Shown here piece after piece: positions 230 through 40,982 of a stretch of DNA of 64,000 nt (position 1 is the stretch's first letter; every line of letters starts with the position of its first letter). The position numbers and the translations under genes were made by a program. The stretch lies in the NCBI GenBank assembly GCA_017849585.1, contig JAFIGT010000042.1, positions 62,001 through 126,000 on the forward strand, given 5' to 3'. Under the pieces are notes generated by a model, which did no database searches, was not told the DNA's origin, and saw nothing but the letters and a program-made list of their open reading frames with translations. This stretch comes from Verrucomicrobium sp. GTDB lineage: Bacteria > Verrucomicrobiota > Verrucomicrobiia > Methylacidiphilales > UBA1321.

Positions 230-1102
230 TTATTTCGAGTTGGCAAGAGAAGGATGCAACGCCTTGGAGAGCTGATCCACCGCATCACCCAATCGCGGAC
301 TAAAGCCGAGCAGCAGCAAATCGTCCATCGCCACGATGCGACCGTTCTTCGCTGCCGGAGTCAAGGCCACGCCCGGCTGTTTCAGCAATCCTTCGCGTCC
401 ACCGATGCTTTCCAAACCGCGATCCGGGATCAGAATTACATCCGGTGCCGCCGCCGCCAACGCCTCGGGCGTCATCGGCTTGTAGCCGTCGTAACCGCTC
501 ACTGCATTCACACCGCCCGCGAGAGCAATCACCGCATCAGCCGCCGTGTTTGCACCAGCGATGTTCATGGTGCCCGCGCCGCGCGCGTAAATGAAGAGTA
601 CCCTCGGCTTGCGCTCGGTCGCGGGCAACCGAGAGGCCACCGTTGCGATCTTCTTATCCAGTTCCGCGCACAGCGCCGCTCCTTCTTTATCCTTCCCCAA
701 CGCCTTGGCCACCGCCTCGATTTTCGCTTTCGCGCCGGCCACCGTATGATCCGCCGGAGCTTGCACGAACGGAATGCCGGACGCTTTCAACTGCGCCACC
801 ACGGGAGGCGGCCCCGCCTCCGTCGACGCGACAATCAGGGTCGGCTTCACGCTGAGCACCCCTTCCGCCGACAACGCGCGCTGATATCCCACCTGCGGCA
901 ATTTCGTTGCCGCTTCGGGATAGACACTCGACGAATCGACCGCGACCAGTTGTGCTCCCGCGCCCAGCGCGTAGACAATTTCCGTCACAGGTCCGCCGAT
1001 CGCCACGAGGCGCTCGGTTTTCTCCGCGGCTAACGCGGGCATCCAAAGCAGGGCGACTGCCGCCGGAAGAACCAGCGGCAGTTTCCAATGGGCGATGTTC
1101 AT
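230..1102 (-). CDS. hmuT: Periplasmic heme-binding protein HmuT (ABC transporter substrate-binding)
   Basis: The 290-residue protein has a clear signal peptide (positively charged start, hydrophobic run, cleavage near ALAA at about residue 26). This is followed by a two-lobed periplasmic binding fold of the TroA/BtuF class, with the opening RLVAIGGPVTEIVYALGAG that is typical of HmuT/ShuT. It would bind heme in the periplasm and pass it to HmuU. It starts four bases after the hmuS stop and ends one base before the permease start, so the three genes form a tight operon. Length and motifs match the family. Heme rather than siderophore specificity is supported by the adjacent HemS-type gene. Confidence 0.88.
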   Translation of the reverse strand: MNIAHWKLPLVLPAAVALLWMPALAAEKTERLVAIGGPVTEIVYALGAGAQLVAVDSSSVYPEAATKLPQVGYQRALSAEGVLSVKPTLIVASTEAGPPPVVAQLKASGIPFVQAPADHTVAGAKAKIEAVAKALGKDKEGAALCAELDKKIATVASRLPATERKPRVLFIYARGAGTMNIAGANTAADAVIALAGGVNAVSGYDGYKPMTPEALAAAAPDVILIPDRGLESIGGREGLLKQPGVALTPAAKNGRIVAMDDLLLLGFSPRLGDAVDQLSKALHPSLANSK

Positions 1103-1106
1103 CGTC

Positions 1107-2159
1107 TTAAGCCTTTGGCAGGTTCAGGACGATCAAGCGCCACGCCTCGTCCTCGGCCTGACCGGGCTTGCGCTTACCGAAGAAGAGCACCACGTTCTCG
1201 CCCTGCTTGTCGAAGAGCTCCAGCGAGGTGACAAAGCCGTCCTTCGTCGCCTTCTTGACCACCCAGGCCGTCGCGATGTCGGTCTCGCGCAGGTGCATGT
1301 TGAAGTCATCATCGAGCACGTTCAGCCACTCCGCGCCAAACGGCTTGATATTATGCACCGGGCCGGTGTGAATCTGGATGCAACCGGGGCTGCCGATGAA
1401 CACCATGATCGGTGTCTGCGCCGCCGCGGCCCGTTCCAGCATCAACTTGGTCGCTTCCAGTTTCACCTGCCACGCGTAACCTTCCGGGGCAAGACGCAAC
1501 GCCTGCTCGCGCGAGACGCTGAATTTCTTCATCAAGCCAAAGAACTCGTGAGTGTCCTTCGTCGTCTTCCAGCCTTCCTGAAAACCAGCCACGTCGATTT
1601 CGCTGTCCGGCTTTTCCGGAGCGGCTTTTTCGACGGGACCCGTCACCTGCTCAGTCGATTGATTCGACGAGGTGTACTTCGTCACCAACTCGGAATACAC
1701 CGCGTGATCGCTGCCTTCCGTGAGGAAGAGCTTAAACACCGCTGTGCCATCAAAATCGAAAAACTGCAGGCTATGGCGCAAACGACCTTCCTTGTCCGTC
1801 TCGCCAACGGCGAATCCGACATGCCAGTGGCTCATGAACAAACGCAGGTCGATATCCGCGCCCACCACCTGGCCCATGCCGTGGAAGAAGGCGATCTCGT
1901 TCGTGAAAACACCATAGCGCTCGTGCACAGCCGATTCATTACGCGTTAGGCACATCACGCGACCCAGTCGCGGAAATTCCTTGATCAGAGCCGTCCAGTC
2001 CCCCTCGAGGCGGGAGACATGACGACCACAATCGGTCGCCAGCAATTCCGCTTCGCTCACGCCCAACGCGCGGGCCGCATCGCGGATGCGCAGCTTGGGG
2101 TTTTGGGTCAACAACTCGCTCCAGCGAGTCTTCAGGTTTTCGTTACTTTCGGTTTTCAT
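1107..2159 (-). CDS. hmuS: Hemin-degrading/heme-chaperone protein HmuS (HemS family)
   Basis: A 350-residue cytoplasmic protein without a signal peptide, of the normal HemS/HmuS/ChuS length. It shows the family's internal duplication: an N-terminal half with the helical start 'NPKLRIRDAARALGVSEAELLAT' type pattern and a C-terminal half with a second copy (IQIHTGPVHNIKPFGAEWLN, DFNMHLRE). Family members bind imported heme and either store it or open the ring to release iron. A purine-rich AAGGAA lies just upstream of the ATG. It is followed by hmuT after four bases and preceded by the receptor gene after 22 bases. Confidence 0.9.
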   Translation of the reverse strand: MKTESNENLKTRWSELLTQNPKLRIRDAARALGVSEAELLATDCGRHVSRLEGDWTALIKEFPRLGRVMCLTRNESAVHERYGVFTNEIAFFHGMGQVVGADIDLRLFMSHWHVGFAVGETDKEGRLRHSLQFFDFDGTAVFKLFLTEGSDHAVYSELVTKYTSSNQSTEQVTGPVEKAAPEKPDSEIDVAGFQEGWKTTKDTHEFFGLMKKFSVSREQALRLAPEGYAWQVKLEATKLMLERAAAAQTPIMVFIGSPGCIQIHTGPVHNIKPFGAEWLNVLDDDFNMHLRETDIATAWVVKKATKDGFVTSLELFDKQGENVVLFFGKRKPGQAEDEAWRLIVLNLPKA

Positions 2160-2181
2160 TGCATGTTCCTTTTTTAGGGGG

Positions 2182-4626
2182 TTAGAAATTGATGGTCAGA
2201 CTCGTGCGCACGGTGAAGCCGGGTTGCGTGAACATATCGATCTGGCTGGGAGAATTGACTCCGCCCGAAGGCAAACTGCCGTTACTGCTCACGTTGCGCA
2301 CATCCTGCCAGAGCCAGTACTGCTGGTTTGTAAGATTATAGAGACCCAGAGAGAACTTCGCGTGCTTGGTGATATCCACATAGCTCACCAGATCGATCGT
2401 GTTGTATTGTGGCGGGCGAAACTGCGTCGGCATGGTCTCCGAGACACTATTCTTCGCGCCCACAAACGTGTTCGTCAGGTCCACACCGAACTTGCCGTTG
2501 CGATAACGCAAGCCGGTGCGCAGCTTCCACGGGTCGACCGAGTCCAGCGGTTGATTGTTCTGCAAATCGTCACCCCACGCGAACGCCGTGCCAAAGAGGA
2601 AGGATAGTCCTTCCAGATCGGGATTGTAGATCACCAGCGGCCATTCGGTGCTCAGTGTCGTGCCGTAGATCTGCGCTTCATCGATATTAGTCGACTGGAA
2701 AACCTGCTGCCCGGCGGAATTGAATCCCACAAAGGTCTGCTGGTTGATGAAGTCCTGGTAGTAATTGTAGTAACCCGCCAGGCTCGCCTTCACCACCGGG
2801 TAATCCACCCGAATGCCGGTCTCAAAGTTGTAGCTCGTCTCCGACTTCAGATTGGGATTCGCCACCACTTGGTAATTCTCTGCAAAGTTATTGAACACCG
2901 CGTTCAACTCTTCTGTCGTTGGCGAACGGAAACCCTGTGCAAATTGGGAGTAGACCATAATCTCCTTTTCCGGCCGCCCGATCAGCGCCATCTTCGGAGA
3001 GATCGCCCATTCGCTGTAGCTCGTTCCATCCTTACCCGTCACCTTGGTGTAGAGCCGGTCGTTATCGACACCGAGATCGTAGTAATCCACACGCAAGCCG
3101 GGCACGAGTGAGAACACCTTTTCCGAGCCAAGATCAATTTCATCCTGCGCAAAAAAACCCAAACGGACGACGTCCGAATCCGGAATTTCCTTGTATGGCA
3201 TGAAGTATGGCCCGAAGGCGCTGGGTTGCGACCCGAAGCTCTGGGACTCGACTCCCGTCGTGAGATTCTTGATCGAACCCGTCACATTGCGTTCGAGTTG
3301 CGAATAGGAAAGCTCCGTGCCGTAGGTCAGCAAATGCGACCAGGCACCCGTATCGAAACGCTTTTCAAACTGGATAGAACCGCCACCAATATTATCGCTG
3401 AAATCACGCTGGAAGCTGCGCAGATATGGAACCGTATTCTGCCGGATATATCGCTCCGCAATATCCTCATTGTTCGATGTCGGCTGATAATAGCCCTGCC
3501 ACGTAAACGCATCGAAAACCGGTGTCGCCTCGGGCCGTTCGAAGCGATGATTCAAGCTGACACGCCAACGCTCTGATGTCGTATCCTGCGTCAGCGAGCT
3601 GCGATTGATGTTCACACCGCCATTCGTAAAGGAACCGAGCTGGTTATTCAGGGCCGAGTTATTGTCACGATTGAAATATTCCCCGGTCAGCACGAGACGG
3701 TTGAACTCATTCGCCTGCCACGCCACCTTGGCGAGCACATTATTGCTGTGATAATTCAGAGGATTGGCGCCGTAGCTGCCCATGTTCTGCGTTTCGTTGC
3801 CATCGCGGCGTGTGTACACGCCCAGTAATTCCACGTCCTTGCCCGCGCGCAGCGCCATCGTGCCGGTCTCCGCATACTCCATGCTCGCACTGTCGAACGC
3901 GGACGTGACGTCGAAGTAATACGGCTCCGCCTTGCCCGTAAGATAATCCGACGGATCTTTCGTGATGTACGTCACCACGCCACCAATGGCATCACTGCCG
4001 TACAGACTGGAGGCCGAACCCTTCAGAATTTCCACCCGCTTGAGCGAGTCAATGTCCTGATAGTTGCGGCCAATGCTGTACGTGTTGCCAAAGGTGTACT
4101 GATCCGCCTGACGAATGCCGTCGGTCTGGATCAGGATACGGTTTCCGTCGATACCGCGAATATTATATCCCTGCAGTCCAGCGCCGCTACGGCCACCCGC
4201 TCCCTTGCCGCCCACATTATTCGTGGTGCTGACGTCGAGTTCGTCGGAAACGAGATCGCGGAAATTCGGTGCCAGTTCCATCTGCACGCTGTCATCGGTA
4301 TAGGTGGAAACACTGCCCGCCACATCGTTCTTCGACTTCTCCGTGCGCGTTGCCGTCACCACCACTTCATCCAGGCGCACCGGCTTTTTGATTCCCTCAT
4401 CCAGAATCGGTTTCTTCAACCGGTCTGCCGCCGCTTGCTCTTGCGCGGTCGGCTTGTGCGCCACCTCGCCGGCGTTTTCCTGTTGCACGGTGGTGGTCGT
4501 GGTCGAAGCCGTGCTGGTCGCCGTTTGTGCCTGTACACCCGGCCGGCCCATCGCCAAAAAGGCCAGGCATAACCCGATCAAAAAGAATCCGCGGAATCGT
4601 ACCGCCCACCCAAAGCTATCGTTCAT
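2182..4626 (-). CDS. hmuR: TonB-dependent heme/hemoglobin outer-membrane receptor
   Basis: The 814-residue protein has a signal peptide ending near residue 34, a Thr/Gln-rich linker, a TonB-box-like segment (LDEVVVTATRTEKS, about residue 84), a plug domain with RGIDGNRILIQTDGIRQ, and a long beta-barrel ending in a phenylalanine (SLTINF). The FRAP/NPNL signature region of heme receptors is present as FRSP (about residue 565) and NPNL (about residue 590). The histidine usually found between these two motifs is not seen. Location at the head of the heme operon downstream of an AraC regulator supports heme or heme-protein uptake across the outer membrane. Confidence 0.87.
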   Translation of the reverse strand: MNDSFGWAVRFRGFFLIGLCLAFLAMGRPGVQAQTATSTASTTTTTVQQENAGEVAHKPTAQEQAAADRLKKPILDEGIKKPVRLDEVVVTATRTEKSKNDVAGSVSTYTDDSVQMELAPNFRDLVSDELDVSTTNNVGGKGAGGRSGAGLQGYNIRGIDGNRILIQTDGIRQADQYTFGNTYSIGRNYQDIDSLKRVEILKGSASSLYGSDAIGGVVTYITKDPSDYLTGKAEPYYFDVTSAFDSASMEYAETGTMALRAGKDVELLGVYTRRDGNETQNMGSYGANPLNYHSNNVLAKVAWQANEFNRLVLTGEYFNRDNNSALNNQLGSFTNGGVNINRSSLTQDTTSERWRVSLNHRFERPEATPVFDAFTWQGYYQPTSNNEDIAERYIRQNTVPYLRSFQRDFSDNIGGGSIQFEKRFDTGAWSHLLTYGTELSYSQLERNVTGSIKNLTTGVESQSFGSQPSAFGPYFMPYKEIPDSDVVRLGFFAQDEIDLGSEKVFSLVPGLRVDYYDLGVDNDRLYTKVTGKDGTSYSEWAISPKMALIGRPEKEIMVYSQFAQGFRSPTTEELNAVFNNFAENYQVVANPNLKSETSYNFETGIRVDYPVVKASLAGYYNYYQDFINQQTFVGFNSAGQQVFQSTNIDEAQIYGTTLSTEWPLVIYNPDLEGLSFLFGTAFAWGDDLQNNQPLDSVDPWKLRTGLRYRNGKFGVDLTNTFVGAKNSVSETMPTQFRPPQYNTIDLVSYVDITKHAKFSLGLYNLTNQQYWLWQDVRNVSSNGSLPSGGVNSPSQIDMFTQPGFTVRTSLTINF

Positions 4627-29408: not shown

Positions 29409-30194
29409 CTACAGACCGGACTGGGGATTCCAGTTTCCGTTATTTTCTTCGGGGCCAAACCAGCCGATTTTATTCTTGGCGTTATTCCCGCCGTAATAAT
29501 TCACCCCACCAAGCTTCGAAGGGAGCTCCTCCGTGACATGGCCATCGCACCAAGCCACCAAGGCTTTGCCATTGACGCGAAAATGCACGCTGGGCTGCAA
29601 ATCGCCAAGCAAGCGGCCCTGATTATCCACAAACTTATATGGCTCGCAGTAGGCGTATTCCTGCAAGCCTGAACTTCGGGCAAAAGCAGTCGTCGTGAAC
29701 ATCACCGTATTTACCGGATTGGGAATTGAGGGGATCATGGCCCCCGAATATATGCTTGCGGGTGTACCGCCCACATAAACCGCATTGTAGCCGTAGCCAC
29801 CCGTGCTCACCTCAAAACTATTCCCCTCACCTAAGGCATTTTGAAACAAGGGGCACTTTTTAACCAATCCATCATTGCCAAGATAGGGCGCAAGGTATCC
29901 CTTGTGCGGATCAAACGCAGCGCTAGACGAACTACGCGCACCGTGCCAGCGCGTATTATTATATCTATCCTGCGCCGGGCAAAATTGCCCGCCATTATCC
30001 GCAGCGTAAGCTGTATTAGCTTGAACTAGCTCGCGCAAATTGGAGCATGATTTGATCGCCAATGACCGCGTATGCGCGTTTTTAAGACCGGGCAAGGCGA
30101 GGCAAGTCAGCACCGCAACAACGCCCAGGCACACCATGATTTCCACCATGGTGAAGCCGCTACGAGAGCTGCGCATGAAAACTTGCTTCGTCAT
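29409..30194 (-). CDS. Type II secretion/pilin-like pseudopilin (riboswitch operon 1)
   Basis: A 261-residue protein with a class III signal sequence: a short basic leader, the prepilin peptidase site G|FTMVE with Glu5, then a hydrophobic helix (MVEIMVCLGVVAVLTCLALPG). The body contains ELVQANTAYAADNGG, a GGYGYNAVYVGG block, and the H-X-DG-type end ALVAWCDGHVTEEL...WFGPEENNGNWNP. It is the last gene of the operon behind the first cobalamin riboswitch, 17 bases after the DUF4465-like gene. It is clearly paralogous to the protein at 32560-33369. Pseudopilins of this kind are abundant in Verrucomicrobiota and Planctomycetota and their roles are mostly unknown. Confidence 0.85.
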   Translation of the reverse strand: MTKQVFMRSSRSGFTMVEIMVCLGVVAVLTCLALPGLKNAHTRSLAIKSCSNLRELVQANTAYAADNGGQFCPAQDRYNNTRWHGARSSSSAAFDPHKGYLAPYLGNDGLVKKCPLFQNALGEGNSFEVSTGGYGYNAVYVGGTPASIYSGAMIPSIPNPVNTVMFTTTAFARSSGLQEYAYCEPYKFVDNQGRLLGDLQPSVHFRVNGKALVAWCDGHVTEELPSKLGGVNYYGGNNAKNKIGWFGPEENNGNWNPQSGL

Positions 30195-30211: not shown

Positions 30212-31036
30212 CTAGGACTGCTTACGACGACGCCACACGCCAAAAGCCGCAGAGCCCATCAGCAAAAGTGCCAAGCTGGAAGGCTCAGGGACAGTGGTAA
30301 TATTACCCACAGCAAAATACGACGGCGTACCGTAGGTATCCGATGAAGACGTGGTAATCTGCAGGCTGGTCGTATCGCTTCCAAATGATGACAAATCCAC
30401 GGTTTCCCATGTCGCAAGAATGTAATCCTGCGCATTGTCGGAAAAACGGTAATCCGCCAGATAGACATTGATCACACCGGTCTGACCGCTGAGCGAATTA
30501 TACCCAGTGATGGTCAGCAGGAACCAATCCTGATCGTTACCAGTAGCTCCACCAAACTTCTTGGAGAACGTATCGCCATTGAGCATGGCATAGTACGCAT
30601 AGGCCGTGTTGGTGACCTCGAGTGACAAGGGTCGTTGATCTGCTGCAAACGTAATCGTCGGTATGGTGGGAGTATAGGAATCGTAGTAGGCCACCGCATA
30701 GGCAGACCCGCTACCACTTACACCGCCACCCGTAATGGCGCTATATTGATTAGCGTAGCCTCCGGTCGCAGCATTGGTCGTATTGGAATAAGCCCAACCA
30801 CCCCATGAGCCATAAGTTGTATTATAGTTGTTGTTAAATGTCGCGCTACCACTGGTAAAACTACCAGCGCTATCCGAGCCATTATAGTAACGTCCACCAC
30901 CCGCTCCGGTATAAGCTTGTGAGGGCGATGTTGTGATATTGAGGTCGGAAAAATCAATGACCGCCGACTGAACGGCAGAGTTTCCAGCCAGTAGAGCGAC
31001 GATACCAACAATCAGGTACAGAGAGATTTTTTTCAT
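30212..31036 (-). CDS. PEP-CTERM-sorted DUF4465-like surface protein (riboswitch operon 1)
   Basis: A 274-residue protein with a signal peptide (about residues 1-24), a beta-rich body and a C-terminal PEP-CTERM sorting signal (VPEPSSLALLLMGSAAFG then WRRRKQ). The body resembles DUF4465: a Tyr-Tyr-Asn-Gly-Ser-Asp block early on, YGSWGGWAYSNTT, NQYSAITGGG, NTAYAYYAMLNGD, and GNDQDWFLLTITGY. DUF4465-type proteins occur in vitamin B12-regulated loci of Bacteroidetes (recalled, not searched). It lies six bases after the preceding PEP-CTERM gene, downstream of the first cobalamin riboswitch. A corrinoid-binding role is an inference. Confidence 0.78.
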   Translation of the reverse strand: MKKISLYLIVGIVALLAGNSAVQSAVIDFSDLNITTSPSQAYTGAGGGRYYNGSDSAGSFTSGSATFNNNYNTTYGSWGGWAYSNTTNAATGGYANQYSAITGGGVSGSGSAYAVAYYDSYTPTIPTITFAADQRPLSLEVTNTAYAYYAMLNGDTFSKKFGGATGNDQDWFLLTITGYNSLSGQTGVINVYLADYRFSDNAQDYILATWETVDLSSFGSDTTSLQITTSSSDTYGTPSYFAVGNITTVPEPSSLALLLMGSAAFGVWRRRKQS

Positions 31037-31042
31037 AATAAG

Positions 31043-31831
31043 TTAAGAATGGTTTTGTGTAGGTTTACGAACAAAAACAAACATGAGAATCGACAGAAGC
31101 ACGAGAGCGTAGGTACCCGGCTCGGGAACCGCATTCATGACACCAATGGCATCGAGATCGAATCCACCCGATCCATACGTTGTGTAGGGGTCGTAAATGG
31201 GATTGCCAGCAGAATCCTGACAAGAACCATCCCCGGTAATATCAATTAGCCGGATGTAGTTGATCTCCGTGATTCCGTACTGCGATAGATTCAGTACCGA
31301 CAAGTCAAAAGGCGTTCCGTAACCCTGCATGTACTTGCCAGCCAGCCCATCAATGTTGGTTGCATCCATCGGGTTTGTTAACGCGTAGGAATCGACCGAT
31401 GTGGCCGTGAGCGATGAACTCGGGAATCGATAGAACGTCGTGCCATCATAGGACACCTCCACATAGGCAAGCTCCAGAAACGTACTATTGACCGAATTCT
31501 CAAAAACACAGAAATCAGCTCCCACGCCATCCACAATGGCATGGTCAAACGTCAACGTAATCGATCCGCCATCACCGAGCGAAACAATGTCATAACTATC
31601 CCCTACCGCACTCCCCAAAGCCAAACTCGGGGTCTGCCACTCGCTGTCCACATTAGAACCCACCTGATAATTGGTATAGCCCGTGGCCCAACCGACAATG
31701 GATGAATCACCCATCGACACAGCCGTACTACCCGGGGATCCTGCCTCGGGCGCATAGGGACCTGCCAACGCTGGTGCGATTAAAAAGACCGCCGCAAATG
31801 TTTGCAGCAGCCACCTTAAACAGCGACTCAT
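31043..31831 (-). CDS. PEP-CTERM surface protein with 'GADF-VFEN' domain (riboswitch operon 1)
   Basis: A 262-residue protein with a signal peptide ending at about residue 23 (ALAG) and one domain of a family that recurs three times in this region. Its landmarks are GADFCVFENSV, ELAYVEVSYDGTTFYRFPS, LAGKYMQGYGTPFDLS, INYIRLIDI and GSGGFDLDAIGVMN. The C-terminus is a PEP-CTERM tripartite signal with a weak basic end (VPEPGTYALVLLSILMFVFV-RK). It is the first gene after riboswitch 1, with AAGGAG eight bases before the ATG. The family is known as an uncharacterised cell-surface protein type; B12-linked function is inferred from the riboswitch. Confidence 0.8.
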   Translation of the reverse strand: MSRCLRWLLQTFAAVFLIAPALAGPYAPEAGSPGSTAVSMGDSSIVGWATGYTNYQVGSNVDSEWQTPSLALGSAVGDSYDIVSLGDGGSITLTFDHAIVDGVGADFCVFENSVNSTFLELAYVEVSYDGTTFYRFPSSSLTATSVDSYALTNPMDATNIDGLAGKYMQGYGTPFDLSVLNLSQYGITEINYIRLIDITGDGSCQDSAGNPIYDPYTTYGSGGFDLDAIGVMNAVPEPGTYALVLLSILMFVFVRKPTQNHS

Positions 31832-31889: not shown

Positions 31890-32150
31890 TCCCACGCTTC
31901 ATTAATACGATGAAGTTTTTCAAACGATGCCACAAAGCACCGTTTGCATGAGCTCTTGCACAGGTGGTATTCGGACTCCGGGTTTAGCCTTGCCCCTAGC
32001 CTTCGTCGGCGGAAACCGACTGGCGTTTTCTCCACTCCCACTTAAGGAGTTTTGACGGGGGCTTGTAACCCGTTACCGCAGCGTCACTGTCGCCGGATTT
32101 CACGGCATTCCCAACACTCTGCAAGGTTTTTCAGCCATTCACCCCGATAG
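31890..32150 (-). promoter_or_regulatory. Cobalamin riboswitch 1, upstream of PEP-CTERM/pseudopilin operon
   Basis: On the minus strand the core elements of a cobalamin aptamer appear in order. GGGAA is at 32112-32108, then CCGTGAAATCCGGCGACAG with GCTGCGGTAA, a helical middle section (31985-32060), and the B12-box end AGTCCGAATACC at 31977-31966. The second copy at 36.3-36.5 kb shares the same core nearly base for base. A short stem CTTCAT/ATGAAG (31915-31897) lies in the downstream expression platform in both. No T-run follows, so control of translation through the AAGGAG site of the 31831 gene is more likely than termination. Corrinoid binding would be expected to repress. Confidence 0.88.
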
Positions 32151-32278
32151 GGCAATGACCGACTCAACTAATCTTCCAAAGAACAACAATCGATGTTTTG
32201 ATAGAGGGAGCGCCGACTTTAGTCAATCTGATTTAACCCCGGCGCACCTAAGCCCCCATGAGCAAAGGGCTTGTATTT

Positions 32279-32559: not shown

Positions 32560-33369
32560 TTATTTCAGGGGATTCCAATAACCATTATTTTCGTCGGGCC
32601 CAAACCATCCCAGATGTTGCTTGCGCGCATCGCCCCCATACGGGTTGTAACCCGCTCCACGGTCGTCGGAAATTTCAAAACTGACATGCCCATCGCACCA
32701 CGAGACAATCGCTTGTCCGTTGAATCGAAAATGCAAACTCGGCGTAGGCCGCGAACCATTCGTCGATCCGTCCGCATTCACCCAGAAGGGAGGCTCCAGA
32801 TAAGGGTACTCCTGCACCCGATCGCCATAAGCAAGCGCAGCCGTCCCAAACATGATCGTCTCCACGGGACTCGCCACCCGCGTGGCAGGCAACGACACAC
32901 GCAGGCGTTGTACCGAGCCATCATACTCTCCCGGTACCGAGCCCCCGATGTACGCGTTGTATCCATAGCCACCCGAACCATATTCGAACGACTTGATTGG
33001 CTGCCGCTGCAACATCTGGGTGAAGAGCGGGCACGGCGTCACGCGCCGCGATTTGCCGAGATATTCGGCGAGCAAGCCCTTCGTCGGATCGTACGAATTT
33101 CCCGTCGAGAGGCGCGCTCCGCACCAGCGGCGATTATTCCACCAATCGTCCGCCGGAACAAAGCGTCCATTGTCCGCCGCGTAAGCGATGTTCGCCTCGG
33201 TCAATTGCCGCAGATTACTCGCGCTCGCCATCTTCCACGCCTGCAGACGCGCGGATTGAAATCCCGGCAAAGAGAGGGCAATCAAGGTCACCAAGACACC
33301 CACCACCACGAGTAATTCGAGGACAGTGAAGGCGCGTCGCTCTGTTGCGGAAGACGAAAACGACTTCAT
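32560..33369 (-). CDS. Type II secretion/pilin-like pseudopilin (riboswitch operon 2)
   Basis: A 269-residue protein with a prepilin leader and processing site (RRA|FTVLE, Glu5), a hydrophobic helix (LELLVVVGVLVTLIALSLPG), and a body closely similar to the pseudopilin at 29409. Shared blocks are YAADNGRFVPADDWWNNRRWCGAR, a GGYGYNAYIGG block, LHFRFNGQAIVSWCDGHVSFE and LGWFGPDENNGYWNP. The residue before the cleavage site is Ala rather than Gly. Its ATG overlaps the stop of the upstream PEP-CTERM gene by one base, so they are translationally coupled. A pseudopilin in each riboswitch operon suggests a joint function. Confidence 0.85.
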   Translation of the reverse strand: MKSFSSSATERRAFTVLELLVVVGVLVTLIALSLPGFQSARLQAWKMASASNLRQLTEANIAYAADNGRFVPADDWWNNRRWCGARLSTGNSYDPTKGLLAEYLGKSRRVTPCPLFTQMLQRQPIKSFEYGSGGYGYNAYIGGSVPGEYDGSVQRLRVSLPATRVASPVETIMFGTAALAYGDRVQEYPYLEPPFWVNADGSTNGSRPTPSLHFRFNGQAIVSWCDGHVSFEISDDRGAGYNPYGGDARKQHLGWFGPDENNGYWNPLK

Positions 33370-34349
33370 CAGGAAACCTCTTCGACGCGACCTCGCCGCC
33401 AGTACAGACTCCCCAGCCCCACGAGGAGCAACGCCATCGCGGAAGGTTCCGGCACGACGTTGATCGCGCCGATCGCTTCCAGATCGAAACCACCCGAACC
33501 GGTGGTGACGGAGGCGTCGTAAATCGGATTGCCGAGACTATCGAGGTACGTGCCGGTGCCGGGAATATCGACGATGCGGATGTAGTTAATCTCATCGAGA
33601 TTCACCAGCCCGAGTTGCACCAGCGAATCGTTCACGAGGCTGTCCAGATCGAACGCCGTGCCCCAACTGTCCCCATCGTTATTCACGCTTTTCCCCGCGA
33701 GATTGTAGATGTTCGTGGGATCAACCGTGCCGTACTGACCGACCGCACTAGGGGTTAACGACACGCTCGGCATGCGCGCGAAGTTGAGCCCATCCGTGGA
33801 AACCTCCACGAAGGCCAACTCCGCAAACGTCTGCCCGGCCACTCCGGCACCGCCGCTCGACACGAGTGCATTCTCGAACACCGCGAAGTCCGTGCCGATC
33901 CCGTTGCAGATCGCCTGGGAAAACCCGAGCGTAATCGATCCCGGTTTCGCGCCGCTCGCGATTTGCGCTGCAGTCAAATCCCCGAGCGACACCACATGCG
34001 TGTAATCACCCGTCACTTCGCCAAGCGCCTGACTCGCATTGCGCCATTGCGAGTCCACATTCGAGGCGGGACTGTAATCCACCACGGTTGTGGCCCAGCC
34101 CTTGAAGACCGGGTTCACATAATTGTTCGTGTTGATGTAGATCGGCTGCTCCGTCTCCAGATCAATTCCACTCTGGATGTTCGCCTTCCCCTCACCATCC
34201 GGGCCGACGAATCCCGCAATCGGCGCATCATATGCGTTGCCGGAATCATTCGAGCTCGCGGCGTAGGGCCCGGCCTTCAACGTCAGCAGGCCAGTCGACC
34301 ACACGAACATGGCTATGCGAAAAATTCGCAAGGAATGCATGATCGTCAC
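33369..34349 (-). CDS. PEP-CTERM surface protein with 'GADF-VFEN' domain (riboswitch operon 2)
   Basis: A 326-residue protein with a signal peptide ending near LKAG (about residue 26). An insertion-rich first part is followed by the recurring domain: GTDFAVFENALVSS, ELAFVEVSTDGLNF, YNLAGKSVNN, INYIRIVDIPGTG and GSGGFDLEAIGAIN. The C-terminus is VPEPSAMALLLVGLGSLYW-RRGR, a PEP-CTERM signal. It overlaps the upstream fusion gene by four bases (ATGA) and the downstream pseudopilin by one base. It would be exported, processed by an exosortase not present in this window, and displayed on the surface. Confidence 0.82.
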   Translation of the reverse strand: MTIMHSLRIFRIAMFVWSTGLLTLKAGPYAASSNDSGNAYDAPIAGFVGPDGEGKANIQSGIDLETEQPIYINTNNYVNPVFKGWATTVVDYSPASNVDSQWRNASQALGEVTGDYTHVVSLGDLTAAQIASGAKPGSITLGFSQAICNGIGTDFAVFENALVSSGGAGVAGQTFAELAFVEVSTDGLNFARMPSVSLTPSAVGQYGTVDPTNIYNLAGKSVNNDGDSWGTAFDLDSLVNDSLVQLGLVNLDEINYIRIVDIPGTGTYLDSLGNPIYDASVTTGSGGFDLEAIGAINVVPEPSAMALLLVGLGSLYWRRGRVEEVS

Positions 34350-36196
34350 GCGCCCCTCGACCGCCGCAAGCGATGGCCCAGGATTGCGACCATGCCCGTC
34401 GTCAACAAGGTGACCGTTCCCGGCTCAGGCGCAGCATGAACCACCCCCACTCCGGTCAGATCAAATCCTGCCGTGTTTCCATAAGCGGAGTTGGAATCGT
34501 TGATCGCGTTACCGGCAGAATCGAGCGTCTGCTGTCCCGCGAGACTTCCCACCACGTCGGTCACGCGCACGTATTGAATGTTATCGAGATCAAGAAACGA
34601 ACCATCCGCATTCGCCACATCGAGCAAATCATCAAGATCGAATGGAGTGCCGTAGCCGGAGAGATCTTTACCCGCAAGATTATAGACATCGCTCGGATCG
34701 ATCGTGCCGTAAGCGCCCACCTGCGTGGTCGTCTGCGTCAACGAAATCGACGGGAACGTATAGAAATGCTCACCGTCCGAACTCACCGCGATCATCGCCA
34801 GTTCCGCAAAAACCTTGCCGCTGCTGAGCATGGCGTTTTCGAACACAGCGAAGTCGGCTCCCGCGCCATTCATAATCGCTTGACTGAATGTCAACGTGAT
34901 CGTCCCGCCATTACCGAGACTGATCAATCCGCCGTACCCGCCGAGGATACTTTCCGGCGTGCCGTAGGATGCCGCCGCACCCGAGAGCGCGCCCGTGGCA
35001 GTCGTATAGGTCACCGGTCCGCGCACGAGATCCTGATACCCCGCCGCCCACTCGACGATGGATGTCGAATCCGACTTGATCGCCGTGCTGCCGGCGTCCG
35101 TCGAAATCCCCGAGTAAGGCCCCGCCCATGCGACCGTCGAGACACTCACCACAATCGCCGCCGCGCCCAACGCGCGACGGAGTTGACGCCGCCGCATCAC
35201 CAGCGGCACGAGCAAACCCGTCAGCAACAGTGCCACGGTGGATGGTTCCGGCACCGCACTGACCTGATAGATCCCGCTGCCGCTCGAGACGTAAATACTG
35301 CCATCCTTCTCCCGCACCTCGCCGAGACGATCGCTGTCCGTCAACACCGTCGTGGCCGCGCTCGCATCCGCTGTAATTTCCACCAGCACCGACGGAGCGG
35401 TCCAACTCGTCAGCGTGAGATAGATGTTGCCGTCTTCGCCAATCACCATCGAGGTCGCACCGCCGTTATTGCCCGTTTGATCTGCGTACTCCGCGCCAAA
35501 CGTGAACCACGCGGACGACGCCACGAGCGCATTATTCACCGGATCGGCCAACGCCAGCGACACCTCCGCTGCGGTCCACCGATAGATGCTGTCGCTGCCC
35601 CAGCCCGGCGCATAATACAGATTCCCCGCCGCGTCAAAGGCCAGCGGCCCTGAGGCGATTCCCGGCGTGGCCGCCGTGAAAGCGGTGATCGCTCCGCTGT
35701 TGGGCAAACTTCCATCCGCCACCGGCGTCGCGTAACCAAGCTTGTTCGCATCGCCCACGTTTCCCGCACCGCAAACGTAAAGACTACCGTTATAGGCGTA
35801 GAGACCGTAGTTCGCCGCCGTGGATGTCAGCGTCTTGGTGCCACCCACCACATCATAGCGATAGATCTTCTGCGTGGAACCCGCCGACGTGTTGTAGTAG
35901 ACGTAGCCATTGAGGTAGACTGCGCTCGCGCCGACATAATCAGTCGAACCCGCCACCACGGTGGTCGTGGTGCTTCCGTTGAATTGGTAGAGCCCCCCGA
36001 AAGTATACGAGGACGTTCCCGCCATGTAGTAGAGATTCCCCGAGGAATCCCAGTCATAGCTGACAATACCATCCCCGGTACTATTGTTGTAGTAGGACGA
36101 ATAGGTGAAGCCGGAATCAATTCCGGTGACGGCGGCACGAACCGGTACGATCAGTCCGGCCAAAAGCACTGCGGCCAGTGCAAGGCGATATTTCAT
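34346..36196 (-). CDS. Double PEP-CTERM protein: beta-propeller-like domain fused to 'GADF-VFEN' domain
   Basis: A 616-residue open frame that reads as two complete surface proteins joined in frame. Residues 1-21 are a signal peptide. Residues about 25-313 hold six or so blade-like repeats (SSGNLYYMAG, YNGSLYVCGAG, DAAGNLYYAPGWGSDSIYRW, EDGNIYLTL, KDGSIYVSSGSGIYQV). Residues 315-343 are a full PEP-CTERM signal (VPEPSTVALLLTG... RRRQLRR). Residues 334-358 look like a second signal peptide starting at Met334 (codon at 35197) and ending WAG. Residues 360-587 are the recurring domain (GADFAVFENAM, GYGTPFDLDDL), followed by a second PEP-CTERM signal from 590. It is the first gene after riboswitch 2. 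The propeller recalls BtuG-type B12-binding lipoproteins, but that assignment is inference. Confidence 0.78.
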   Translation of the reverse strand: MKYRLALAAVLLAGLIVPVRAAVTGIDSGFTYSSYYNNSTGDGIVSYDWDSSGNLYYMAGTSSYTFGGLYQFNGSTTTTVVAGSTDYVGASAVYLNGYVYYNTSAGSTQKIYRYDVVGGTKTLTSTAANYGLYAYNGSLYVCGAGNVGDANKLGYATPVADGSLPNSGAITAFTAATPGIASGPLAFDAAGNLYYAPGWGSDSIYRWTAAEVSLALADPVNNALVASSAWFTFGAEYADQTGNNGGATSMVIGEDGNIYLTLTSWTAPSVLVEITADASAATTVLTDSDRLGEVREKDGSIYVSSGSGIYQVSAVPEPSTVALLLTGLLVPLVMRRRQLRRALGAAAIVVSVSTVAWAGPYSGISTDAGSTAIKSDSTSIVEWAAGYQDLVRGPVTYTTATGALSGAAASYGTPESILGGYGGLISLGNGGTITLTFSQAIMNGAGADFAVFENAMLSSGKVFAELAMIAVSSDGEHFYTFPSISLTQTTTQVGAYGTIDPSDVYNLAGKDLSGYGTPFDLDDLLDVANADGSFLDLDNIQYVRVTDVVGSLAGQQTLDSAGNAINDSNSAYGNTAGFDLTGVGVVHAAPEPGTVTLLTTGMVAILGHRLRRSRGA

Positions 36197-36803: not shown

Positions 36804-39800
36804 ATGTCTCATACATTGCTAAAGTCGCTGAAACAGTCGGCTTTTTTTTCGGTTAAGGGTGTTACAATTTTAATGCTGTGCTTCACGGCGTCGCCACTTC
36901 GCTCTCAGACGTGGACCGGCACCACCGGCAGTTGGTTTACCGGCAGCAATTGGACGGGCGGAGCTCAACCGAGCGGCTCCTCCACGACGTACATCAACAA
37001 CACCGGCACGGCACAGATCTCAACGAATTCCGGAACAACCGGCACCCTCTACGTCGGCGATACCACCACAGGCTCCCTGATCATTCAAAACGGCGGCTCT
37101 CTCTATAATCAATATACCTCGATTGGTGATTCCAGCGGTGGCGTTGGCGTTGTGACCGTAACCGGATCTAGCGCGATTCTATCCTCCTCCATCAGCAGCA
37201 CTACAAGTACGGGCATCATTTACATTGGCAGAAACGGCAACGGCACCCTCAACGTGAGCAATGGCGCTACCGTCCTCACCGAGGCCATGTATATCGCCTC
37301 CAATTCCGGTTCGGTAGGAACACTCACGGTCAATGGAGCGGGATCTACCGTAACCGTTGCCGGTTACCTCGGCATCGGCGAATACGGTAACGGCACCATG
37401 ACCGTCTCAGGTGGTGGCAAGGTATATAGTGGCACCACCACCTATGCCAGTGTGATTGCCGATTGGCACGGATCGCAAAGCACGGTTACCGTCACCGGAG
37501 CAGGCTCTCTGTGGAGCACCCAAACTCTCTGGGTTGGCTGGGGATATACCGCCGGCACCTCGTCTGGCACCCTCAATATCAATAGCTCGGGAGCCGTCAC
37601 TAGCACCACAGTAAACGTGGGTACGTACACCACATCCACCGGCACGATCAACGTGAATGGTGGCGCTTGGACCATCACCAATAGCCTGAATCTCGGTCAA
37701 GCCGGAACCGGCAGTCTTAATATCAGTGGCGCCGGCTCCGTCACAGCAAGCTCGGTCTATCTGGCTACCGCCAGCACCGGCACGGGCATTCTCACAGTGA
37801 GCGGTTCGAATTCTCTCTTGACCACGGGTACTCTCTCCGTCGGACAATACGGCACAGGTATCGTCACCATCAGTAATGGCGGCGACATTACAAGCTCCAC
37901 CGGTACTATTGGCGACAATAGCGGCTCCAATGGCACGGTCACCATCAATGGCACAGGCTCTACCTGGACAGTTTCCGGTGCCGTCGCGGTTGGCAACAGC
38001 GGCACCGGCACTATGAACATCGCCAATGGCGGCCAACTCGCCACCAGCACCGTGAGCATCGGCGTTAACTCCGGCTCCACCGGCACGCTGAATGTAAATG
38101 GCACCACTGCCAACACGTGGAGCGCCCTCACCGTCGGCGCAGCAGGCACCGGCAATCTGCTCGTCAATAATAGCGCGGTACTCACCACCTCCACGGCCAT
38201 CATCGGCTCCTCCTCCACTGGCATCGGTACTGCCACCATCAGCGGCGCCGGCTCGCGGTTGGTCGTCTCGAGTAATAATTTAGTCGTCGGCTCCAGCGGC
38301 CGGGGTTCCCTCATTCTCGAGAATGGCGGCACCGTCACCAGTAGCACCGTCACAGCGGGTTCTGCTTCCGGATCGATTGGCAACATCACCCTCAGCGGTA
38401 GCACCACCGCCGCTGGCTGGACCAACCTGGCCCTCGGTGTCAATGGCACCGGTACTGTGACCGTAACGAACGGCGCAGATTTGACCACCACCACCACCAC
38501 TCTCGGCAGCACCGTCAGCTCCACTGGCAGCGCTCTAATCTCGGGAGCAGGCTCCAATATGACCGTTTCAGGCAATCTCATTGTCGGCAGCTCAGGCACC
38601 GGCACCGTTCGCATTGATAATCAAGGAGCTCTCCGTGGCGGCGCGATTGTGCTGGGTAGCGCGGTAGGCTCCACCGGGACCATCGTCCTCAGCGGCGCAG
38701 GCTCCACCCTCACCTATAGCTCGATCACCGTGGGCGGTTCGGGCTCGGGCGTGATCACGGTGGCCGACGGCGCGACCCTAACCCCTGGAGCAACCCTCAC
38801 CCTTAGCTCGACATCACTCGGCTCAGGCACTCTCAACATCGGCGCGGCGGCCGGAGAAACCGCCACCGGCGCGGGCATTATTGATGCCACCAACATCTCC
38901 ACCGCAGCCGGCGGCACAGGCACCATCCAATTCAAGCACACCTCCACCGCCTATTATCTCACCAACGACGGCACCAGCGGCGGCACCTCTGTCAACATTC
39001 GCGCTGGCACGGCCGTCACCCAGAATGGCGGTGTCACTATTATCTCTGGCGGCACGAACGATTACACCGGCGCTACCACAGTCAATGGCGGCACCCTCAG
39101 TGTCGCGGGCAACATCACCAACACCAACCGGGTAGTCGTCACCGGCGGCTCCCTGCTTGATGGTGGCACCATTGTCACGACCAATACGACCATCAGCGGT
39201 GGAGCACTCAGCGTCTCGGGCACCTTCACCACCACGAACATGGATATCACTGGTGGCACGGTCAGCGCCTCGGGCACCTTGAACTCCACCAATACTCGGA
39301 TCAACGGCGGTACGCTCTTCCTCGATACCAATTTAACCTCCACAGTTACCGTCACGAGCGGTCAATTGATCATGAAAACGGGCCGCACCCTCACCGGCAA
39401 CGTTGGCGTGAGCAATGGCACCTTCGGCACAGCCGCCTACTACGACAATACGCTTCCCGCGGGGATCGTCACCGTCAGCGGCAATCTCACCCTCGGCTCC
39501 GGCTCCACCACGGGAGTGCGCGTGACCAATACGACCCCTGGTAGTTTCGATGTCGTACAGGTCACCGGCACGGCCACGCTCGCAGGCACGCTCGCGGTGA
39601 ATTTCAACAATAACAACGGCTACATTCCGCAAACCGGCGATTCCTTTGTCATCATGAACGCGGGTGCTTTTGACGGCAACTACACCAACTACTCGAACGT
39701 GATGCAGAATTACTTCATCTTCACCACGGGAACCTATTCAGGGAACGATTACACGCTCACCGTTTCCATGGCGCAAAAGTCATTCACCACATCGGCAGTG

Positions 39801-40982
39801 ACGGGCAACCAAATGGCCGTCGCCCAAGCACTGAATAACGAAATTCGCCCCGGCAGTACGATGCAACCCGCCATCGACTACCTGAATACCCTTCCCGAAT
39901 CCTCCTGGGGCCAAGCCTTCGACCGCATCGCCCCCGAAGAACTCATCTCCGCACCAAGCTCGGGCCTCGCCAATGCCAGCTCGCTCTACAACATGCTCGG
40001 CAACCGCTTCAACGAAGTCCGCTCCGGACAACGCTTCTCGGATAGCGGCCTCGTCATGTGGGACCCCAGCCGCGAGTTTAATCGCAACAGTCTGCTCGCC
40101 AGCAATGGTCCCCTTCCCGAAGGATACCAGACCGCCAACCCTTCGATCTTTAACGACTCCCGCTTCGGCATGTTTGTCTCCGGACAAGGCACCTTCGGCG
40201 ACGTCAACGGCGACAACAGCACCGACGGTTACAATTTCAATGCGGGCGGCCTGATTCTCGGCTGCGACTACCGCGTCGCCGAACACACCGCCATCGGCAT
40301 CTACGGCGGCTACCAAGGCACTGACACCGACCTCAGCAACAGCGGCAACGCGAAGACAGACAGCGGCAAGTTCGGCGTGTACGTCACCCAATGGTGGGAT
40401 CAAGGCGCTTGGATCAATGCCTCCATCGGCGGCGGCTACAACAGCTACACCAACAAACGCGCCGCACTCGGAGATTTCGCCAACAGCACCACCACTGGCA
40501 TGGAATTCAACTTCCAGGCCCAACAAGGCTACGACTTCCACATCGGTCGCTGGACCTTCGGCCCCACGCTGCAAGTGGACTACACCAACCTCTCCATTGA
40601 CGGCTACACCGAATCCGGCTCGCTGGCACCGCTGAAAATCAACTCTCAGACTGCCGAATCGCTGCAAGGCACCATTGGCGGACGCGTCACCACCAGCATC
40701 GACGTCAACCACAACCAATGGAAGGTCCAGCCCTACGCCAACGTCGGTCTGCGCCACGAATTCCTAGATACCCAGCAAGCCATCACCGCCGCCTTCGCTA
40801 ATGGTTCTGGCGGTACCTTCAGTGTCGACGGCCCCAAGACCGATGCCAATAGCATCGTCGCTGGATTCGGCGTGACGCTGCAGCTCAGCCCCCGCTGGAG
40901 CGGACAGCTCGGCTACTTCGCCCAAGCAAATGAAGACTACCTGATCCAAAGCATCACCGGCTCAGTTGTCTTCAGTTTCTAG
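36804..40982 (+). CDS. Giant autotransporter with serine/threonine/glycine-rich beta-helix repeats
   Basis: A 1392-residue type V secreted protein. A signal peptide is at about residues 1-34. A passenger of about 960 residues is built of repeated short beta units with motifs such as GTLNVSNGA, VGSSGTGT, ITVSGAGS-x-L/W and STGTATISG, typical of parallel beta-helix passengers. An autophagic-looking linker with NNEIRPGSTMQPAIDYLNTLPESSWGQAF-type sequence follows, then a C-terminal barrel domain (about 1120-1392) ending in VVFSF, the expected aromatic terminus. The passenger is extremely rich in Thr, Ser and Gly and almost free of Cys. It probably serves adhesion or surface coating. It is a single-gene unit. 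Confidence 0.88.
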   Translation: MSHTLLKSLKQSAFFSVKGVTILMLCFTASPLRSQTWTGTTGSWFTGSNWTGGAQPSGSSTTYINNTGTAQISTNSGTTGTLYVGDTTTGSLIIQNGGSLYNQYTSIGDSSGGVGVVTVTGSSAILSSSISSTTSTGIIYIGRNGNGTLNVSNGATVLTEAMYIASNSGSVGTLTVNGAGSTVTVAGYLGIGEYGNGTMTVSGGGKVYSGTTTYASVIADWHGSQSTVTVTGAGSLWSTQTLWVGWGYTAGTSSGTLNINSSGAVTSTTVNVGTYTTSTGTINVNGGAWTITNSLNLGQAGTGSLNISGAGSVTASSVYLATASTGTGILTVSGSNSLLTTGTLSVGQYGTGIVTISNGGDITSSTGTIGDNSGSNGTVTINGTGSTWTVSGAVAVGNSGTGTMNIANGGQLATSTVSIGVNSGSTGTLNVNGTTANTWSALTVGAAGTGNLLVNNSAVLTTSTAIIGSSSTGIGTATISGAGSRLVVSSNNLVVGSSGRGSLILENGGTVTSSTVTAGSASGSIGNITLSGSTTAAGWTNLALGVNGTGTVTVTNGADLTTTTTTLGSTVSSTGSALISGAGSNMTVSGNLIVGSSGTGTVRIDNQGALRGGAIVLGSAVGSTGTIVLSGAGSTLTYSSITVGGSGSGVITVADGATLTPGATLTLSSTSLGSGTLNIGAAAGETATGAGIIDATNISTAAGGTGTIQFKHTSTAYYLTNDGTSGGTSVNIRAGTAVTQNGGVTIISGGTNDYTGATTVNGGTLSVAGNITNTNRVVVTGGSLLDGGTIVTTNTTISGGALSVSGTFTTTNMDITGGTVSASGTLNSTNTRINGGTLFLDTNLTSTVTVTSGQLIMKTGRTLTGNVGVSNGTFGTAAYYDNTLPAGIVTVSGNLTLGSGSTTGVRVTNTTPGSFDVVQVTGTATLAGTLAVNFNNNNGYIPQTGDSFVIMNAGAFDGNYTNYSNVMQNYFIFTTGTYSGNDYTLTVSMAQKSFTTSAVTGNQMAVAQALNNEIRPGSTMQPAIDYLNTLPESSWGQAFDRIAPEELISAPSSGLANASSLYNMLGNRFNEVRSGQRFSDSGLVMWDPSREFNRNSLLASNGPLPEGYQTANPSIFNDSRFGMFVSGQGTFGDVNGDNSTDGYNFNAGGLILGCDYRVAEHTAIGIYGGYQGTDTDLSNSGNAKTDSGKFGVYVTQWWDQGAWINASIGGGYNSYTNKRAALGDFANSTTTGMEFNFQAQQGYDFHIGRWTFGPTLQVDYTNLSIDGYTESGSLAPLKINSQTAESLQGTIGGRVTTSIDVNHNQWKVQPYANVGLRHEFLDTQQAITAAFANGSGGTFSVDGPKTDANSIVAGFGVTLQLSPRWSGQLGYFAQANEDYLIQSITGSVVFSF

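Follow-up and report, generated by a model that had tools for sequence, protein, structure and literature searches.

A single open reading frame of 616 codons, located on the minus strand at positions 34346–36196 of the window (the whole 64,000-nt stretch of DNA that was analysed), encodes in this order a β-propeller domain, a PEP-CTERM sorting signal, an internal signal peptide, a BtuH-type domain and a second PEP-CTERM signal. On balance, it is probable that a stop codon was lost between two operon-neighbour surface-protein genes of a vitamin B12 capture locus, and that the product is a membrane-processed polyprotein which would give rise to two B12-related proteins.

The frame, hereafter the fused ORF, is read without a stop from 36196 to 34346, and all parts listed below lie on the minus strand; the signal-peptide and transmembrane calls derive from hydropathy and motif reading. 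A hydrophobic stretch and an A-x-A-like site suggest an N-terminal signal peptide (residues 1–22, 36131–36196), followed by the β-propeller domain (residues 23–314, 35255–36130), which was assigned from an AlphaFold2 model and fold matches. The PEP motif (residues 316–318) and hydrophobic helix of the first PEP-CTERM signal occupy residues 315–333 (35198–35254; hydropathy 2.65), and the TIGR02595 match, which covers about residues 315–338, scored 27.3 bits, above the cut-off of 16 bits. The basic end of this signal falls within the next part (residues 334–358, 35123–35197), which comprises the basic loop RRRQLRR and the internal signal peptide ending in AWA; Met334 is the codon 35197–35195, and the second signal peptide reads MRRRQLRRALGAAAIVVSVSTVAWA with its cleavage site before GPYSG. 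Together these elements form a hairpin between the domains, composed of a hydrophobic stretch, a 9-residue loop with five Arg and no acidic residue, a second hydrophobic stretch (hydropathy 2.14), and A-W-A preceding the G of the cleavage site. The BtuH-type domain (residues 359–588, 34433–35122), assigned by profile and fold matches, and the second PEP-CTERM signal (residues 589–616, 34349–34432) complete the protein; the TIGR02595 match to the latter, at about residues 589–611, is barely over the cut-off at 16.6 bits and reaches 23.7 bits in the sister species. The C-terminal half, with its signal at the C-terminus, is thus unremarkable as a PEP-CTERM protein, while the first signal, which has about 280 residues of chain behind it and is not at the extreme C-terminus, is the exception to the C-terminal rule. 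The sequence-only reading had placed the first signal mid-protein at residues 315–343 and had the frame running on from Met334 at 35197 through a signal-peptide-like segment to another surface domain with a PEP-CTERM signal of its own; this was borne out and its coordinates were correct, with the minus strand, missing there, now supplied.

To place the mid-protein signal in its genomic setting, PEP-CTERM signals with E ≤ 0.05 were counted in this one genome, a list outside which the weaker second signal of the fused ORF falls. In total, 67 signals were detected. For 65 of them a stop comes 23–36 codons past the PEP motif, and the frame goes on beyond the other two, the one in the fused ORF and one on contig 15. 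Since nearly all end shortly after the motif, a PEP-CTERM signal in the middle of an ORF is exceptional in this genome beyond chance. The genome also encodes two exosortases above the cut-off (TIGR04178). With the known PEP-CTERM/exosortase system the first signal of the fused ORF thus shares the PEP motif, hydrophobic helix and basic end, but differs in lying mid-protein, whereas the usual signal is near the C-terminus. PEP-CTERM has been described as virtually always near the C-terminus, and longer-tailed or mid-protein cases as perhaps non-functional (Haft et al., 2006, PMC1569441). Such signals are taken to function at protein ends only. The one in the middle of the fused ORF belongs to a frame that is conserved and under purifying selection, and several lineages share its layout, which opens to direct test the question of whether exosortase requires a free C-terminus.

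Both the identity of the two halves and their vitamin B12 context had gone unrecognized in the sequence-only reading. Searching the PDB with the whole fused protein by sequence gave no match, but a profile of 30 C-half sequences matched one sequence, 8blw_B (residues 390–476, E 1.2e-4), and the matched region is the BtuH domain of BtuG1 (PMC10404256). The AlphaFold2 model of the C half (pLDDT 89.7, pTM 0.91) had BtuH2 as its best structural match in VIA (7biz_A; Z 12.8, 3.2 Å, 158 residues), followed by the BtuG1 H-domain (8blw_B; Z 12.2, 3.2 Å, 165 residues) and then CBM32-type folds (Z 9.2), and Foldseek with the same model ranked 8blw_B first (E 1.1e-4). By sequence and predicted fold, the C half is a BtuH-type domain. 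The Asn of its FEN motif is invariant in 30/30 C-domains and is aligned with the Asn of YDFRILGNA in BtuG1 and of YDFCVQGNA in BtuH2; it probably lies at or within about two residues of the B12-contacting Asn399, and the contact Asn would then be conserved. We infer that the domains of the fused ORF bind B12. BtuH2 (PDB 7BIZ), a B12-binding surface lipoprotein, has the same domain fold and the aligned Asn, but carries Ig-like PKD domains and a lipid anchor, whereas the C half is without PKD domains and has a PEP-CTERM signal instead. The BtuH-type B12-binding domain, known from lipoproteins of gut Bacteroidetes, thereby extends to predicted exosortase-sorted proteins of Verrucomicrobia and relatives.

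The N half, as modelled by AlphaFold2 (pLDDT 84, pTM 0.82), is clearly a β-propeller and in this respect propeller-like as BtuG, with Z-scores of 22–25 to many β-propellers in VIA. Its matches to PF16819/DUF5074, the family of BtuG as a YncE-like β-propeller lid of BtuB, were weak and below the cut-off, and a profile search against the PDB returned nothing significant; BtuG was not among the structural matches listed, and Foldseek and VIA rank many unrelated propellers together. Given a BtuH-type C half, a β-propeller N half and an upstream cobalamin riboswitch, the fused ORF resembles the BtuG–BtuH fusion of Bacteroides. BtuG1/BtuGH of Bacteroides thetaiotaomicron (BT_1490, PDB 8BLW) is a natural propeller–BtuH fusion encoded in a cobalamin-riboswitch locus, with the same domain order in one ORF and with both parts binding B12 (PMC12751083, PMC10404256). 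It is, in contrast, one lipoprotein with no sorting signals described between its domains, whereas the fused ORF has two PEP-CTERM signals and an internal signal peptide; moreover, the propeller of BtuG1 is BtuG, while that of the fused ORF is a BtuG candidate. The fused ORF may represent a PEP-CTERM form of the BtuG–BtuH pairing in which a putative processing hairpin separates the two domains.

The surrounding genes and regulatory elements, all on the minus strand, point to B12 as well. A cobalamin riboswitch (RF00174; 36327–36541, 49.3 bits, E 2.6e-9; gathering score 31.5) lies about 130 nt before the start codon of the fused ORF. Downstream, a second BtuH-type PEP-CTERM gene (33369–34349; 49% identity to the C half; Shine-Dalgarno −7.2 kcal/mol) overlaps the fused ORF by 4 nt (GTGA), and a prepilin-like gene (32560–33369) is the last of this first operon. 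A second cobalamin riboswitch (31946–32155, 41.5 bits) is followed by a third BtuH-type PEP-CTERM gene (31043–31831; 47% identity to the C half), a DUF4465 gene with PEP-CTERM (30212–31036; PF14717, E 7.8e-45) that belongs to the second transcription unit of the window, and a second prepilin-like gene (29409–30194; TIGR02532). These are the only two cobalamin riboswitches of the genome. DUF4465 is the BtuJ-type family, B12 binding of which has been demonstrated in eight members (PMC13398666); the protein encoded here has a PEP-CTERM signal in place of the lipoprotein anchor. A B12-dependent methionine synthase (MetH) is present in the genome. The relatives G002, G010 (117 bits), G006, G001, G159 and G277 also have the riboswitch ahead of the propeller gene, and it occurs at more distant loci too, including those of Pirellulales, Pseudomonadales and Hydrogenedentes. 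At the Pseudomonadales locus, genes like BtuF, BtuC and BtuD precede the propeller gene; after it come a TonB receptor, matched best by the B12-receptor equivalog at a score below the cut-off, and then a BtuH-type gene. The order propeller, BtuH-like, prepilin recurs at five loci (L032, L034, L037, L136 and L142). The locus suggests how Verrucomicrobia and relatives capture B12 at the cell surface.

Several further features were observed around this locus. The two prepilin-like genes share a C-terminal pattern and, in several families of the class, such genes stand last in B12-riboswitch operons. The genome yielded no clear BtuB; the TonB receptor at 4626–2182 was considered for this role and rejected, as it scored above the haemoglobin-family cut-off and far below the TonB-B12 cut-off. 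Region 230–4626 holds this haemoglobin/haem-type receptor and a substrate-binding protein, with a FecCD permease just outside the window, and these genes probably serve haem uptake. Divergent from the first riboswitch operon, an autotransporter of 1392 aa with repeats is encoded at 36804–40982.

The sequence-only reading had suggested asking whether orthologues carry the two halves as separate genes. Mostly they do: in most relatives, including G001, G006, G305, G170, G166, G376 and G175, the halves are two adjacent genes, but a fused frame is present in the sister species G002 and in five further genomes. In G010, from another genus of the family, a single frame aligns over residues 4–611 with 44% identity, and both PEP-CTERM signals, the basic loop and the second hydrophobic stretch recur in it; Chthoniobacteraceae RYN_612 (G366) has a fused frame as well, and G020, G030 and G033, from another family of the order, are fused through longer, partly repeat-like loops of 45–104 residues. 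The hydrophobic–basic–hydrophobic hairpin with a net positive loop was kept in all fused homologues, and their second helix is likewise followed by the small residues expected at a signal-peptidase site; the loops of G002, G010 and G366 carry 3–5 positive charges in 9–10 residues. In G159 and G277, only one TGA interrupts a frame common to both halves, and beyond a further stop this frame goes on into the prepilin gene. Split orthologues, and above all these two, support well the proposal that the fused ORF originated as a gene fusion after stop loss. At the same two loci, the only in-frame start of the BtuH-like gene is a GTG about 40 nt past the TGA, so that stop readthrough or an unusual reinitiation is possible there. 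Mapping fused and split states on the C-domain tree needed six changes, at least four of them forced by well-supported branches, while the propeller tree (18 rows) needed three and is compatible with a single origin. For the window and G010, one fusion with later fission and two fusions would both fit the trees and cannot be told apart by them. The simplest origin would be that neighbouring genes repeatedly lost the stop that separated them, and where split genes overlap or abut such a fusion may simply be neutral.

Cutting of a polyprotein at the membrane, another of the three accounts offered in the sequence-only reading, is the most likely way in which the fused ORF works, and the topology and cleavage motifs of the hairpin fit this reading. 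The propeller would cross to the outside of the inner membrane, the first PEP-CTERM helix would pass inward, the short arginine-rich loop would stay inside, and the signal-peptide helix would pass outward again, leaving the BtuH-type domain outside and the last PEP-CTERM helix closing the chain. By the positive-inside rule, the loop is expected to be cytoplasmic, and both cutting sites would face the periplasm. The first PEP site would then be where the exosortase sorts the propeller, and signal peptidase I would release the BtuH-type domain between AWA and GPYSG, so that the signal peptide of the second protein is in effect built on the basic end of the first PEP-CTERM; the freed domain would in turn be sorted at its own PEP-CTERM, and two B12-related surface proteins would be produced in equal amounts under riboswitch control. 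The fuller proposal, in which an exosortase acting on a mid-chain PEP-CTERM and signal peptidase I jointly deliver two B12-scavenging proteins at a fixed ratio from a layout that arose repeatedly, because stops behind PEP-CTERM can be lost without harm, is a serious possibility that we rate just short of probable. Against the polyprotein, signal peptidase must act on a signal behind a transmembrane helix. No exosortase is known to accept a PEP-CTERM signal with the chain continuing behind it. In the cytochrome b/c1 precursor FbcH of Bradyrhizobium, also a single chain, signal peptidase cuts at an internal signal peptide located behind a membrane segment; FbcH is unrelated to the fused ORF and without an exosortase signal. 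Viral glycoprotein precursors such as bunyavirus Gn/Gc work on the same principle, with a membrane segment and then an internal signal peptide as the signal-peptidase site in one chain, but the proteins are unrelated and have no exosortase signal (PMC5113920). The open literature searched held nothing relevant on PEP-CTERM polyproteins or on PEP-CTERM together with B12.

The sequence-only reading had also offered translation from two starts. On this account, Met334 would initiate the second protein alone and the through-translated product would be a tolerated by-product. The segment MRRRQLRRALGAAAIVVSVSTVAWA alone would indeed make a good signal peptide, and ATG334 is kept in G002, with a TTG at the matching place in G366. 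Met334, however, has no Shine-Dalgarno (−2.8 kcal/mol, compared with a mean of −3.8 and s.d. of 2.2 at random ORF positions), whereas six of the seven other scored start codons in the locus reach −5.6 to −8.2 kcal/mol, the DUF4465 start being the exception, and termination–reinitiation coupling is precluded because there is no stop. Neither G010 nor G366 has an ATG at the place of Met334; the candidates in G010 are limited to a TTG inside the first helix, a GTG lacking a basic n-region and an ATG inside the hydrophobic core, and two of the long-loop loci (L011 and L025) lack an ATG near the second signal. Two starts are therefore unlikely, and weaker as an account than fusion and polyprotein processing.

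Alternatively, the hairpin could stay in the membrane and tether the propeller and the BtuH-type domain as a single protein working like BtuG1/BtuGH, whose domain order and B12 binding by both parts speak for such a pairing. Both sorting signals and the A-x-A site have nevertheless been kept, no such hairpin has been described between domains in B. thetaiotaomicron, and an inner-membrane anchor would hold both domains away from the outer surface, which makes a single tethered protein quite unlikely.

It is very unlikely that the stop disappeared recently and almost neutrally, leaving a C-terminal half that is on the way out, or that the fusion is a curiosity of annotation that means nothing functionally. 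Whatever follows a PEP-CTERM helix is discarded, and constraint on stops in that position may therefore be weak; in one genus of another family (L011, L021, L022, L023, L025 and L030) PEP-CTERM genes often extend into repeat-derived tails of 40–100 residues, as if their stops were under weak constraint. Against this, the frame is conserved between species and genera, and purifying selection is strong in both domains: comparison with Verrucomicrobia bacterium Tous-C9LFEB (G002), a second species whose same 616-codon frame is 96% identical, gave a dN/dS of 0.055 overall, 0.038 in the propeller domain and 0.024 in the C domain, with dS about 0.3 in both domains (0.32 in the C domain). Higher values were found in the hairpin (0.33), in the basic loop plus second signal (0.79, from few sites) and in the second PEP-CTERM (0.37); the looser selection on the hairpin is what sorting signals would lead one to expect. 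Although the genome is a multi-contig draft, and every genome with the fused form is a draft or metagenome assembly, an error of assembly or sequencing concealing a stop or frameshift near 35200, the outcome by which the sequence-only reading would have given way to two ordinary genes, is contradicted and ruled out by the independent Tous-C9LFEB genome, which keeps the whole open frame despite 139 nucleotide differences over 1851, and by similar fusions elsewhere. The layout recurring across species looks like a rare natural bacterial polyprotein, not a sequencing error.

Two other frames join a membrane helix to a prepilin leader. On contig 15 of the same genome (locus L124, 5129–6586, minus strand), a frame of 485 aa runs from a PEP-CTERM protein straight into a type IV prepilin leader, with WWSRLRSKKSRTTHG directly followed by FTLMELLLAVTIV at the junction, where the basic end doubles as the prepilin leader. 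On contig 184 of G006 (locus L165, 1022–3004), a frame of 661 aa links a protein that ends in a transmembrane helix and a basic stretch with a prepilin leader, and is a further hairpin-type fusion, without PEP-CTERM.
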